Positions 47,063 to 57,740 of a stretch of DNA of 64,000 bases are shown here, piece after piece. Within the stretch, counting starts at the first letter, position 1. Each line of letters starts with the position of its first letter. This DNA is from Mycobacteriales bacterium (GTDB lineage: Bacteria > Actinomycetota > Actinomycetes > DATLTS01): the NCBI GenBank assembly GCA_035533475.1, contig DATLTS010000035.1, forward strand, positions 1 to 64,000, read 5' to 3'. Under the pieces are notes generated by a model that did not search any database, was not told where the DNA came from, and saw only the letters and a program-made list of their open reading frames with translations. The position numbers were made by a program, and so were the translations under genes.

Positions 47063-48845
47063 TTACGAGGTAGCACTTGGGACAGTGCTCCTCGGGGCGC
47101 CGCGAGCGGTCTTCGGCGTCCTGGTCGCCCGGGGAGGTGGTTCGGCCGGTCGGGTCCTCTGCCGCTGGTGCGGCTGCCCCCGGGCCTCGCTGTTTCCGGG
47201 TTCCCTGTTTCGCTGCTCGCGCAGGCCGGGCGATGCCGGCGTGGGCCGCACGGCGGAGTCGGTAGCTCTCTGTTGCCGATCCTCTGGTCGGGTCGAGTCA
47301 CACCTTTCCCGTCGCCGTGCTCGCTGTGCGAGCCCGCGTCTGCCGATCACCAGGGCCGCCGCATGGTGGCCGCTCGCGTCGGGCGAGATATCGTGCAGGG
47401 CGCCGAGCCAGTGCTCGACGCCCCAACGTGATGTGTAGGCCGGGTCGACGGCGATGACGCTCAGCCCGGCGTTGGTGGCCATCTGGGTGAGCCGGTTCCG
47501 GAACTTCGCAGTCGGGATGCCCCCAACCAGGCGCCGGAAGGCCCGTCCCCGCCGGCCCCGGCCGGGGCGGCGCCCGGAGTGCTCGCGTCCCTCGGCCCGA
47601 GCCTCGGCGAAGTCGAGGTCCTCGACCACGACCGCACGGCAGCCGTTGGCCCGAGCCATGCCCACCAGTTCGGAGATGGCGGCGCGCAGGCGCCCGTCTC
47701 TGGTCGGCGCCGGCAACCCGGCCAGGTCCAGGGGGACCGTGGCCGGCGCACCCACCGGGTTGCCCGAGGCGTCGACGACAACGACAGCCAGGTGCCCGGC
47801 GTTCAAGTCGACCGCCAGGACACGATCACGGCGCACGTCGTCGAGCACCACGATGGCGGGGTCGGTCTTCCACGACGCGTCCAGGTACCAGCGGGCCCTG
47901 TCGGGGTCATAGGAGATGTCGTAGCGGACCGCCCCCGTGGCCGCCTGGGCGGCCACGTCGTCATTGCGGTAGGGGAAGCTCACCGGTGTCGACACTCGAT
48001 AGCGGCCATGGGGAGCGTTGGCCAGATGGGACAGTTGTGCTGGCAGCTTCACCTCCAGCCAATGCTGGTCGGGGTGCCAGCGGATGGTCTCGTTGCCCCA
48101 CGTCTTTCCCGCCTCGCCGTCCGCGGTGATGAACCACCGCGACGACTCCCACCGGCGCCGCCACCGGTGCTCGCTCAGGCCGGCTTGGTCGAGGTGGTGG
48201 CGGGTAGCGGCCAAGCGCTTCCCGCCCCGGCAGATCGACACCCGACCCGCTTCGAGACCGGAGCTGACCTCGCCGAGACGGAAACTGGAGTGCCTGGAGC
48301 CGGCGGCCCTTCTCGAAGCGCTCGGCGGTGGTCGCATATCCGCGGGTCTTACCTCGCCGCTCGCCCACCGCGACGCCAAGGCGGGCTCGGATACGCCCGA
48401 TCCTGGCCCGAAGGCTGCGGGCCTCGGCGGCCAGGTTGCGCTCGGCCAGGCACCAGGCGTCCTCGGAAGTCCGGGTGATCGCACCCGCCCAACGCGACGA
48501 GCACGATGAGGTCAGGGCGGCCTTGCGTTCCCGGCGCGACACCGCAGCACCCTTGGCGTCCAAACGGCCCTCAGCGCAGCGTCGGGCTAGGTCAGCTCCG
48601 GCCAGCGATCCCAGATGCTCCCCGAGTGCGCACAGCACCTCGGCGTCGACGTCGTCCGCCATCAAACGGGTGCGCACCCTCGCCCCGGCCGGCGGCGCCA
48701 CTACGAAGGGGGCGGCGACAGTCCGCAAACGGCGGCGACGGCCCATCAGCGCAGCGCCTTCAGCACCGGCGGCAGCACGGAGAGCACGCGCCTCGCTTCG
48801 CCCAGACAGGCCGTGGTAGTCATGGCGCGATCTTCCCACCGGCAT
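47063..48845 (-). pseudogene. tnpB: TnpB-related RuvC-domain protein of an IS607-type element, frameshifted
   Basis: The N-terminal frame (ATG 48845) reads ALRAAAGAEGAALMGRRRRL ... LNLAAEARSLRARIGRIRAR-like helices up to FEKGRRLQALQ. Near 48283-48286 one base too many shifts it, and the family sequence continues in the next frame as RLGEVSSGLEAGRVSICRGG, KRLAATRHHLDQAGLSEHRW, WHPDQHWLEVKLPAQLSHLA and the RuvC motifs DRVLAVDLNAGHLAVVVVD and CRAVVVEDLDFAEARAEG. The third motif region reads SPDASGHHAAALVIGRRGL, with His where TnpB nucleases normally have a zinc knuckle and Asp. It belongs to the 'TnpB-related' actinobacterial branch, RNA-guided nuclease relatives, here probably inactive. The tail overlaps a low-complexity region to 47063. 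It overlaps tnpA by 26 bases. Confidence 0.75.
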
Positions 48846-49443
48846 GTGACAGTGCCATCGGTCCTACGTCGTGCCCGGCGCAACGCAGCGCCTTTTCCGC
48901 CCTGTTCCTGGCCGAACGCCGCCCGTACAGGCGGGCACAGAAGCTGGTGAGCACCTCGGTCATGTCCCGGACCAGATCGTCGTCGACCTCGCCCGCGTCG
49001 AGCACCAACACGCTGCGACCCTGGGCCGACAATGCCGCCTCGACCAACTCGATGTTCATCCTCCCCAGACGATCCCGATGCTCGACGACCACCGTGGTCA
49101 CCTTCGGGTCAGCGAGCAACCGGCGCGCCTTGCTGCGAGCCCCGCTCATCCCCGAGCCCACCTCCGCCTCGACGCGCTCGACTCGCCTTCCCGCCTTAGC
49201 CGCCCATTCGCTCAGCCGGGCCACCTGCCGGTCAAGATCGGCACGCTGATCGGGAGAAGACACCCGGGCGTACAGCCCGACGCCGCCCCCACCCTTAGCC
49301 CGCGCCGCCATACCTGGGTCGTCGACCAAGATCACCCTGGCGTTGACCTGGCGAGCCGGCACCGGCAACGTCCCCGCCCGCCACCACCGATACGCAGTCT
49401 TCGGGTGCACGCCGTTCGCCCGAGCCCAATCGGCCAACTTCAC
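48820..49443 (-). CDS. tnpA: IS607-family serine recombinase (transposase TnpA)
   Basis: 207 residues. A MerR-like N-terminal helix-turn-helix (KLADWARANGVHPKTAYRWW, residues 2-21) precedes the catalytic domain, the reversed order typical of IS607. The catalytic core has GLYARVSSPDQRADLDRQVA (nucleophile Ser62), VVVEHRDRLGRMNIELVEAA and LDAGEVDDDLVRDMTEVLTS. It inserts the element at short GG-type targets without duplicating them. The gene is intact and is followed by the frameshifted tnpB-related gene. Direct repeats CTACTACC at 49453-49460 and 49483-49490 upstream of its start are probably recombinase-binding sites at the element end. Confidence 0.9.
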   Translation of the reverse strand: MKLADWARANGVHPKTAYRWWRAGTLPVPARQVNARVILVDDPGMAARAKGGGGVGLYARVSSPDQRADLDRQVARLSEWAAKAGRRVERVEAEVGSGMSGARSKARRLLADPKVTTVVVEHRDRLGRMNIELVEAALSAQGRSVLVLDAGEVDDDLVRDMTEVLTSFCARLYGRRSARNRAEKALRCAGHDVGPMALSHAGGKIAP

Positions 49444-54652: not shown

Positions 54653-55942
54653 CTAGCCAGGCTCGTCGTGGTCGTCCCCCGAGGCGCTGCCGCCGAGCGC
54701 CTCGTCCTCCCGATAGTCGCTGGCGATCTGGATGGCTTCGCTCTGCGGCTGGTACCCGGGGTCGAGCCGGATCAGATCCCATTCGTTGATCCAGGCCCGG
54801 ACGTACTGTCGCATCCGTGTTGCGCCGAGTCTTTCCAAACCCGAGACGTCCGGCGGTGACCAGCCGAACGCGGCAGCGTGCAGCTGTTTGATCGTCGAGT
54901 ACGCTCGATCAAGCTCGCCACGGTCGGGTGGGCTGAGCAACAGCATGTCTCGATCGATGTGGCGCATGCCCGCCTCGGCGAGAGTCGCCGTCTCGTCCCA
55001 CTCCGGGGTCTCCCTCCCCCGCAGCTTCGCGGGCACCTGCCCGCGATCGTCCTTGCCGGACAGCACGGCCGCCTCGAAGTCGTCCGTCATGGCCAGCACA
55101 CCGACGAGCGGCGCCCGCTGCGCTGCGTCGCCGTCGAGCCAACGGGCCACCTCCGCGTACGACCGGCCGCGCTGAAGCAGGGTGTACCGCCCGATCAGCT
55201 CGACCTCGTCAAAGAGAATCACCCAGCCGGCGTGCCCCGCGGCTCGCAGCAGCCGGGCGATGAAGCGGAACCGCTGCCTGGCCAGGTCACGGGCGGAGAT
55301 CGGGGAGAAGGTGTACATCCCGCCGGCGCCGACCGCCCGCAAGGCACGGCGCAGGTCGGACACTCGCAACGGGTCACCCGCCCAGAATCGGACGAGGGCG
55401 TCGACGGTTTCGTCGCTGCCCGGCACCTCCCCACCCCGCAACCGCTCATGGCAGAGCAGTGTCGCCGCGAAGCGCTCGTCCGGGGCACCGGATTGCGCGT
55501 TCAGCCAGCGGCTGAGCTCGGCGTAACGCGGGGAATCGGCGTCGAGTGACGCCGCGGCGTCCGACACGACCCCGTGGGTGCGGCCGGGGCCGACAGCGCC
55601 GTGGACCGCTGCCCGAAAGGTCTTCACCGGGTCGTGCAGTGGTGTTTCCTTGCTGATCACCACAGTGCTGACCACGAAGCCGGCGGACAACGCGAGATGG
55701 GCCAGATGCGTCAGGAGGTGGGACTTGCCGGATCCGAAGCCACCTCCGACCAGCAGCGCCGTCGAAGCGCCGGAAGCGGGTATCGAACCGTCCAGCGCGG
55801 AGAGCAACGCAGTGAACCGGTCCTCGGCCTCGGGCTGACCCGAACCCAGGGCGGCGACCGCGTCCCAGCTCGGCACACCCGAGCGCAGCGCCTCCACGGC
55901 GCGGCGGCGACTGACCTGTTCGGCGCTCATGCGGTTGCTCAC
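54653..55942 (-). CDS. BREX-type (DUF2791/BrxD-like) ATP-binding protein
   Basis: 429 residues. It is a P-loop ATPase: Walker A GGGFGSGKSHLL (66-77), Walker B WVILFDEVELIGRY (240-253), the DUF2791-type segment TFSPISARDLARQRFRFIARLL, and later GVLAMTDDFEAAVLSGKDDR and RMRQYVRAWINEWDLIRLDP. The layout resembles the ATP-binding subunits of BREX-related defence systems. It is the third gene of a coupled trio: ATG 55942 overlaps the preceding stop, and that gene in turn overlaps the first. The function is probably nucleic-acid-linked (defence or genome maintenance), but no helicase, methylase or nuclease is present beside it. Confidence 0.8.
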   Translation of the reverse strand: MSNRMSAEQVSRRRAVEALRSGVPSWDAVAALGSGQPEAEDRFTALLSALDGSIPASGASTALLVGGGFGSGKSHLLTHLAHLALSAGFVVSTVVISKETPLHDPVKTFRAAVHGAVGPGRTHGVVSDAAASLDADSPRYAELSRWLNAQSGAPDERFAATLLCHERLRGGEVPGSDETVDALVRFWAGDPLRVSDLRRALRAVGAGGMYTFSPISARDLARQRFRFIARLLRAAGHAGWVILFDEVELIGRYTLLQRGRSYAEVARWLDGDAAQRAPLVGVLAMTDDFEAAVLSGKDDRGQVPAKLRGRETPEWDETATLAEAGMRHIDRDMLLLSPPDRGELDRAYSTIKQLHAAAFGWSPPDVSGLERLGATRMRQYVRAWINEWDLIRLDPGYQPQSEAIQIASDYREDEALGGSASGDDHDEPG

Positions 55943-56961
55943 GGAACCGCCTCCAAGCGCACGTCCAGGCGGACCAGAGCGGCGAACGGGTTCGCCCGCC
56001 GACGGTCGCGAACCTCATCGGCGACGCGCAGCTGCAATGCGGTGTACGCGGGCAACCCGCGCGTCTCGTCGGTCACCAGCTCTGGCGGCATGACAGCGAT
56101 CACAAGCGCGCCGCGGAACTCGTCCGTCGCGTCGATGAACTGGCGGAGCACCTCGTATGCGTCGAGCGCGGCGGCCTTCGCGTAGTAGAAGCCGGAACGG
56201 GAATCGATCGGCGGCCGACGCGCCTCCGCCACGCGGGTGTAGTCGAGATACAGCACCAGCCCGGCGTGACCTGCGGACAACATCAGGGCGGCCGTCGAGG
56301 TGAGCATCGCTCGTGCGTTATGCCGGCCGATCCGCTGGTAGATGAGCGACCCCCGCAACGCGGTGATCGAGCGCAATTCGCCTCGGAGCCAGCCGAGCAC
56401 CGCCTCGCGTTCTGCCGGGTCGACGTCACCTGCCCCGAGCCGACTCTGGGCGAGCCGCAGGATCGCGCGGCGCATCTCGGGGGCCAGCGCCTGGTCGGCC
56501 AGCAGGCGTCGCTCCAGCACCCGGCGGACGCTGCGGTAGAGCTCACGGGAGTCGACGTCGTGGAGCCGCGCGACGGCCTCGAGGATCAGCCCGTCACCGG
56601 GCGGAACCGGGAAGCCGGCGGCGTCATAGGCCGCCCGGACATGCGCCCCGGCCAGGTCGTCCCAGTCAAGGGACCTGGAGACGGCAAAGAAGATCTGGTC
56701 CACCATATGCAGTCGGGTCGACTCCGCGGACACCGCCAGGTGCAGGCAGCCGACACGCGCGGCAGCAGCGGCGAGCGTCGCCTCGAACCGGTCGGCCGCG
56801 CCGGCGTCGCCGACGACCGCGACTTTGACCGCACCCCCGCCGGCCGGCAGATAGCACGTCAGGTACTCGTCGGCCAGGAAGGCCGCATAGTCGTCGACCT
56901 TGAGGACGCCGCCGCCGAGGACACCGCTCGGCGGCACGGCGGCCGGCCCGGGCGCGGTCAT
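55939..56961 (-). CDS. Probable ATP-site-dead paralogue of the BREX-type ATPase
   Basis: 340 residues. It aligns in order with the ATPase encoded next to it. Where that protein has a Walker A loop, this one reads VAVVGDAGAADRFEATL (47-63, no GKS). Where it has Walker B after the shared AGHAG, this one reads AGHAGLVLYLDYTRVAEA (230-246, Asp-Tyr instead of Asp-Glu). The body is helical with LHDVDSRELYRSVRRVLERR. I infer a non-hydrolysing partner that forms a mixed complex with the active ATPase. It is coupled on both sides by 4-base overlaps. Confidence 0.7.
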   Translation of the reverse strand: MTAPGPAAVPPSGVLGGGVLKVDDYAAFLADEYLTCYLPAGGGAVKVAVVGDAGAADRFEATLAAAAARVGCLHLAVSAESTRLHMVDQIFFAVSRSLDWDDLAGAHVRAAYDAAGFPVPPGDGLILEAVARLHDVDSRELYRSVRRVLERRLLADQALAPEMRRAILRLAQSRLGAGDVDPAEREAVLGWLRGELRSITALRGSLIYQRIGRHNARAMLTSTAALMLSAGHAGLVLYLDYTRVAEARRPPIDSRSGFYYAKAAALDAYEVLRQFIDATDEFRGALVIAVMPPELVTDETRGLPAYTALQLRVADEVRDRRRANPFAALVRLDVRLEAVP

Positions 56962-57740
56962 CGGGCGTTTGGCGCGGTGAACGACACTCCCCAGTATCGC
57001 TGCTGCTGGCCGGTCTGGGCGACGGTGGTGAGCACGCCTGCGTTGCGGGTGCCGCTGCTCGCGTGCCAGCGCAACGTCCGGCCGCCTTTGGTCGTCAGGG
57101 TGCCCGTCTGGTCAAGCAGGTACAGGTCGCGGGCGAACTCGGGCCGGGTGTAATCCCTCGCCTGGCCGGGCAGCAAGGTCAGGACGGCCCAGACGTCGGT
57201 CAGCCGAACGACTGCATCCGGCTTCTTGCCCGTCCGAGCGACGGCCAGCTCATAGCCTGAGGCGAGGCTTTCGAGGAACTGATCGGCCCGGAACTTCGGC
57301 GGACGCTGCTGGAGCACCGCCAGCAGCTCGACCACGACCGATGGCCGTAAGCGCCGCTCCCGACGCCGGTCGATCTCGATTGCCGAGTCGCTCGGCACGA
57401 CCCGGACCAGGGACGGGTAGCACAGCAGCCGCTCGTCCTCCTCGAACATCGCTATCCGGCGTTCCGCGGCCACCGACAGCAGCTCCTTGGAGTACTCACC
57501 CGACGCCAGGTACGCGGTCTCGTCGAAGTCGAACGCGGCGCGGCCCTCACCCGCCGCGGCCGCCAACTCCGTTGCCAGCCCCGCCGCCACCTCCAGGGCG
57601 CGCCGCAGTTCGCGTACCTGACCGGCGGCGGCCGCCGTCCGCGCCTTGCGAAGCTCGCGAGTGACCCCGTTGGCCACCTTCAACGTAGCCTCCGCCCGCG
57701 CCTGCGCGGCCCCGAGCGCGCCTTCCAAGCCAATCGACAT
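56958..57740 (-). CDS. First gene of the BREX-type trio, helical protein of unknown function
   Basis: 260 residues from ATG 57740, behind GGAGGGGAG. A coiled-coil-like N-terminus ([20 protein letters not shown], then [20 protein letters not shown]) precedes a mixed domain with [60 protein letters not shown] and [20 protein letters not shown], ending [11 protein letters not shown]. Similar proteins accompany DUF2791 ATPases in some actinobacteria, as far as I recall. Its stop overlaps the start of the second gene. The transcript begins in the 130 bases shared with divergent typA. Confidence 0.65.

Follow-up and report, generated by a model that had tools for sequence, protein, structure and literature searches.

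Among described systems, the locus reported here most resembles those that contain an ATPase of the BrxD type. BrxD itself, which belongs to type 2 BREX (PF10923, NF033438), has been described as an AAA+ ATPase of the ORC-Cdc6 type that has an arginine finger and possibly loads BrxHI; BrxD-type ATPases are usually paired with helicases, and BrxD-like ATPases are scattered through several defense systems, the loading of helicases being only a proposal (PMC12839542). One of these systems, the anti-phage system Shango, is a three-gene unit made of the TerB protein SngA, the BrxD-like ATPase SngB, and the helicase SngC (PMC10250203). In a 64,000-nucleotide stretch of DNA, the whole of which is called the window below, we analyzed a trio of genes, p1, p2, and p3, of which p2 and p3 both align over the BrxD ATPase core. 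Compared with BREX, the trio differs in having two BrxD-like paralogs, one of them catalytically dead, and in standing alone, as PglZ, the PglX methylase, BrxC, and BrxHI were found neither among the scanned neighbors of the window trio nor at related trio loci. The BrxD equivalog model NF033438 gave 54.6 bits for p2 and 59.5 bits for p3, far under its cut-off of 350 bits. With PADLOC models, the two proteins matched BrxD and, weakly, SngB, the latter with 22.7 bits each versus 576 bits for the real SngB of the same genome. The trio is, like Shango, a three-gene unit with a BrxD-like ATPase, but it lacks both a TerB protein and a DEAD/DEAH helicase and thus does not qualify as Shango. The genome from which the window comes (G000) does carry a complete Shango-like system on contig C44 (L010:7283-13468), in which overlapping reading frames encode a TerB_N/TerB/TerB_C protein, the 576-bit SngB ATPase (PADLOC SngB), and a DEAD/DEAH helicase.

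The trio consists of consecutive genes on the minus strand: p1 (56958..57740, 260 aa), p2 (55939..56961, 340 aa), and p3 (54653..55942, 429 aa, with a GTG start). An earlier sequence-only reading of this DNA had described the genes as joined by 4-base overlaps, and the ORF calls and the window sequence do show an ATGA shared by the p1 stop and the p2 start (56958..56961, minus strand) and a GTGA shared by the p2 stop and the p3 start (55939..55942, minus strand). The gene for TypA/BipA is divergent to the trio, 133 bases away, an acetyltransferase gene lies downstream, and ABC transporters are also among the neighbors; no helicase, methylase, or other defense gene was found among those scanned. 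A protein with a serine-resolvase N-terminal domain (PF00239) is encoded in the window at 48823-49443, ~5 kb downstream from the trio. Next to it are several small ORFs and one of 473 aa without Pfam match, and this region is possibly a small mobile element.

The third protein, p3, is an AAA+ ATPase of the BrxD family in which both Walker A (GGGFGSGKS) and Walker B (ILFDEVE) are intact. It matches the BrxC_BrxD family PF10923 with an E-value of 2e-17 (64 bits, for a curated Pfam cut-off of 22.2), as do 13/13 of its orthologs (E ≤ 0.001), and in a profile comparison it aligns with BrxD/SngB over 271 columns (E = 2e-22). In the 13 aligned p3 sequences, F69, G70, G72, K73, S74, and H75 as well as D245, E246, and E248 are invariant, and the Walker motifs are retained in these 13 loci and also in L049, which was read for motifs as an additional, 14th locus. 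The C-terminal RxYxRxWIxxWD motif is conserved.

The second protein is the dead paralog. In the window, it carries GDAGAADR in the place of the Walker A motif and YLDYTRV in that of Walker B, following an AGHAG stretch common to p2 and p3, which is what the sequence-only reading had reported when it proposed that p2 was an ATP-dead relative of a BREX-type ATPase. Both parts of this proposal are borne out. The relationship rests on matches to PF10923, found for the window p2 (E = 7e-14, 52 bits, for the same cut-off) and for 13/13 p2 orthologs (E ≤ 0.001), and on a profile alignment with BrxD/SngB spanning 294 columns (E = 4.5e-14), in which the degenerate Walker A and B are in register; because both p2 and p3 match PF10923, their relatedness is not due to chance. 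As for the loss of the ATPase motifs, it is fixed in the 13/13 p2 orthologs of the final alignment, which comprised 13 orthologs each of p2 and p3, and in the 14th (L049), so that a dead p2 accompanies an intact p3 in 14/14 loci where both were read. The GxxGxGK[S/T] form of Walker A present in BrxD and p3 is lost from p2, whose relatives show varied sequences at this position but never a Walker A motif, and at Walker B the aspartate is mostly retained whereas the catalytic glutamate is gone. p2 also lacks the C-terminal lid of BrxD, its match stopping at position 327 of the 440 of the PADLOC model. Taken together, the comparisons support the assignment of p2 as a BrxD-family pseudo-ATPase.

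In p2, R301, Y306, A308, L309, and R312 are nevertheless invariant in the 13 aligned orthologs, and the corresponding segment, R301-G-x-x-x-Y306-x-A-L-x-x-R312, aligns with the R-G...L..R of BrxD, which is its arginine-finger region according to the literature. A motif specific to p2, R213-H-N-A-R217 in the window, has the invariant form R-x-N-A-R in the same 13 sequences. A clean split, in which p3 would have lost the finger and p2 kept it, was not adopted, because p3 carries arginines of its own near this position and the alignment is uncertain there. A tentative assignment of the pair to the ORC/Cdc6 clade of AAA+ proteins follows from the homology with BrxD and its published classification (PMC12839542), and the finger region does align in p2. 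Structure prediction was too weak to decide on the fold of p2: from a three-sequence alignment, the AlphaFold2 model had low confidence (pLDDT 61), and a Foldseek search of the PDB with it returned mostly P-loop NTPases, none significant. On the question of fold, it is therefore the profile evidence that favors a relationship with BrxD.

The first protein, p1, had been called a coiled-coil protein, a description that applies to part of it. Residues ~5-70 are predicted to form an N-terminal helical hairpin, which was also the confident part of an AlphaFold2 model (pLDDT 63, again from three sequences), while the remaining two thirds constitute a different, conserved C-terminal domain. p1 is conserved across the 13 aligned loci; no reliable Pfam match, to TerB or otherwise, was found in any member, and Foldseek returned nothing for the low-confidence model.

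A survey of gene neighborhoods had been suggested as a check on whether the three genes belong together, and it identified the trio in the same order at 13 further loci (L007, L008, L009, L020, L029, L030, L044-L049, and L101), which supports its being a conserved unit. L007 (genome G1016) and L008 (G1017) are from public actinobacterial MAGs, and the first gene of L020, the layout of which is alike, is only 20-23% identical to p1. In the class to which the window genome belongs, p1 was found in 3/395 sampled genomes; in a sister class, that of genome G467, where the six further trios L044-L049 were found, there were p1 matches in 8/299 genomes, one of them weak. No relative was found in plasmid records (tblastn of p2 and p3), in phage records (tblastn of p2), or in three scans of viral contigs, so these collections give no sign that the trio is carried by phages or plasmids.

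In a tree of the paralogs rooted on BrxD/SngB proteins, p2s and p3s fall into two separate clades that branch internally in a similar way, L020 separating first, followed by L030 together with the loci that carry an SNF2-Mrr gene, and then by the loci that consist of the trio only. This pattern implies an old duplication and joint inheritance, and we read p2 and p3 plainly as old paralogs that have been inherited as a unit, the sister grouping of p2 and p3 and some deep nodes having weaker support. The trio-only loci form one clade, supported at 98.5/100 in p2 and 98.7/100 in p3. Given that this clade is nested within the wider family, the most plausible reading of the window copy is that of a derivative without helicase, and the trio-only form probably arose once, by loss of a linked effector. 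The divergence of the trio does not follow that of TypA: G009, the closest genome by this protein (80%), is only 57% identical in p3, whereas G1016 has 75% in TypA and 74% in p3. This disagreement, which concerns one reference gene, and the patchy distribution suggest that the trio has spread horizontally.

The relatives of the trio-only loci are longer. The operon p1-p2-p3-p4-p5 is found in L044, L047, L048, and L049; altogether, five of the six loci L044-L049 continue into p4 and an SNF2 gene, with p5 split between two frames in L046, and in the sixth, L045, the contig ends after p4 and the start of p5. p4 is a protein of 185-194 aa without Pfam match, conserved in the six loci and encoded between p3 and the SNF2-Mrr gene (L048:12676-13230, L044:11866-12447, with equivalents in L045, L046, L047, and L049). 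A weak partial p4 match also occurs elsewhere in G467 (C1:962042-962344). p5 is an SNF2 helicase, with a C-terminal Mrr_cat domain in both p5 proteins scanned (E = 4e-23 and 9e-23); for one of them, the top-scoring model is ZorD, "SWI2/SNF2 helicase, Mrr-like nuclease" (E = 1e-75). When the p5 sequences are aligned, the GVD...QCK motif of the nuclease appears intact in L044, L048, and L049 and altered in L047. In L030, which has no p4, p3 is overlapped by an SNF2 gene, the tail of which is short and degenerate. The fifth gene thus resembles the ZorD of Zorya, but its partner is the AAA+ pair, and ZorA and ZorB were not among the scanned products beside it, so that the operon does not qualify as a Zorya system; the ZorD-like gene is missing from the window. 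In the distant L020, the trio lies 44 bases from a divergent gene (L020:3714-8417) encoding a 1567-aa protein, the N-terminus of which is TmtA-like (E = 2e-46). In contrast to Tiamat TmtA, this part is joined to a DEAD/ResIII helicase at the C-terminus and stands beside the trio; the window has no such gene. On the other flank of L020, an 899-aa gene (L020:11532-14231) gives weak matches to an HTH and to a homing-endonuclease zinc loop. None of the models applied, from PADLOC, Pfam, and NCBIfam, recognizes the five-gene form as a unit; it combines an AAA+ pair with a ZorD-like helicase-nuclease and is a concrete candidate for a new anti-phage system.

Mixed AAA+ assemblies that contain inactive subunits are well known, examples being clamp loaders and ORC. 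By analogy, the three proteins of the trio may form one complex, in which p3 would be the active BrxD-type ATPase, p2 a dedicated pseudo-ATPase partner, and p1 a helical adaptor. p2 would sit beside p3, where its arginine-finger region could complete the ATP site of p3 and where, itself without ATP binding, it could fix the geometry of a ring or arc; p2 may not be needed for the finger, however, given the arginines of p3 near that position. The ATP cycle of p3 would then load or remodel the complex on DNA, with p1 as a possible link to DNA or to a partner. In the sister lineages, the complex would recruit or license the SNF2 translocase and Mrr nuclease encoded with p4 in the same operon, against foreign DNA; in the lineage of the window, where the dedicated helicase-nuclease is missing, the trio would either act by itself, bound to DNA as a sensor or roadblock, or borrow a host helicase. 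We put at about even the chances that the trio is such a sensor/loader module, of the ORC/Cdc6 AAA+ type, belonging to a defense system not yet described and here without its nuclease. In favor of a role in defense, two of the longer loci are next to restriction- or defense-type genes, namely an Eco57I-type methylase in L044 and PLD-like and helicase genes in L045. Against it, no defense island surrounds the window copy or any of the five other intact trio-only copies.

The claim of the sequence-only reading that no helicase, methylase, or nuclease accompanies the trio is correct for the window and for the five other intact trio-only loci, beside which none was found, but it does not extend to the family, in which p4 and an SNF2 gene, usually fused to Mrr, are found. 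Its suggestion of a minimal and undescribed complex fares likewise: our literature searches found no description of an active/dead BrxD pair, but the minimal state is confined to one clade, the relatives of which have a helicase. A stronger version of the defense reading is that the trio is a self-sufficient defense or DNA-surveillance machine derived from an undescribed five-gene helicase-nuclease system, in which the pseudo-ATPase and the active BrxD-type ATPase would stop invading DNA by ATP-driven binding alone, with no nuclease, helicase, or methylase. We regard this version as rather unlikely. As a naturally simplified version, in which separate genes encode the active and the dead subunit and no effector is attached, the trio is a tractable system for studying how BrxD-type ATPases act on DNA.

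The trio might also serve the chromosome rather than defense, as a housekeeping or stress complex (e.g., in DNA repair, replication restart, or proteostasis) whose helicase-nuclease was lost on adopting a cellular role. The trio-only copies all belong to a single clade and lie among ordinary genes (TypA, ClpB, aldehyde dehydrogenase, transporters, and similar), with no adjacent defense genes, and their identity to the window copy (51-74%) indicates clear purifying selection. A trio that is so rare and patchy is nevertheless unlike a core function, and its disagreement with TypA points to transfer; we hold this explanation to be unlikely.

Alternatively, the trio may be complete only in trans, loading a helicase encoded elsewhere, such as a HelZ-type SNF2 protein of the same genome. 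p4 is absent from G000, G009, G434, G1016, and G1017. A search of the trio-only genomes for a dedicated helicase yielded only a HelZ-like SNF2 gene with a SWIM-like neighbor, in G000, G1016, and G009. In the window genome, this 40%-identical SNF2 helicase is on contig C52 (L081:6080-10182) and is followed by a conserved second gene, as are its homologs in L082 and L083. The usual pairing of BrxD-type ATPases with helicases would fit such an arrangement. However, the pair resembles what we take to be a common actinobacterial combination of HelZ with a SWIM protein, and pairing is inconsistent, as in G1017, which has the trio, the best SNF2 match is only ~28% identical and no pair of the C52 type occurs in that form. 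The C52 pair looks generic and was not accepted as dedicated to the trio, and we consider completion in trans quite unlikely.

Lastly, that the trio is an incomplete, decaying, and functionless remnant of the five-gene system, as the missing p4 and helicase-nuclease and a broken related locus (L100) might suggest, is very improbable, because the six trio-only loci, which are monophyletic, have kept intact reading frames, overlaps, and ATPase motifs down to p3 identities of 57-74% to the window copy. In L100 (L100:7197-10528, contig C89 of G1085), which is adjacent to groEL, p1 is cut, its C-terminal part running in frame into a VapB-like antitoxin that is followed by a PIN-like toxin, and of p2 and p3 only an out-of-frame remainder and the p3 tail are left; this breakage could be a real disruption, by a toxin-antitoxin-like insertion, or an error in the MAG.
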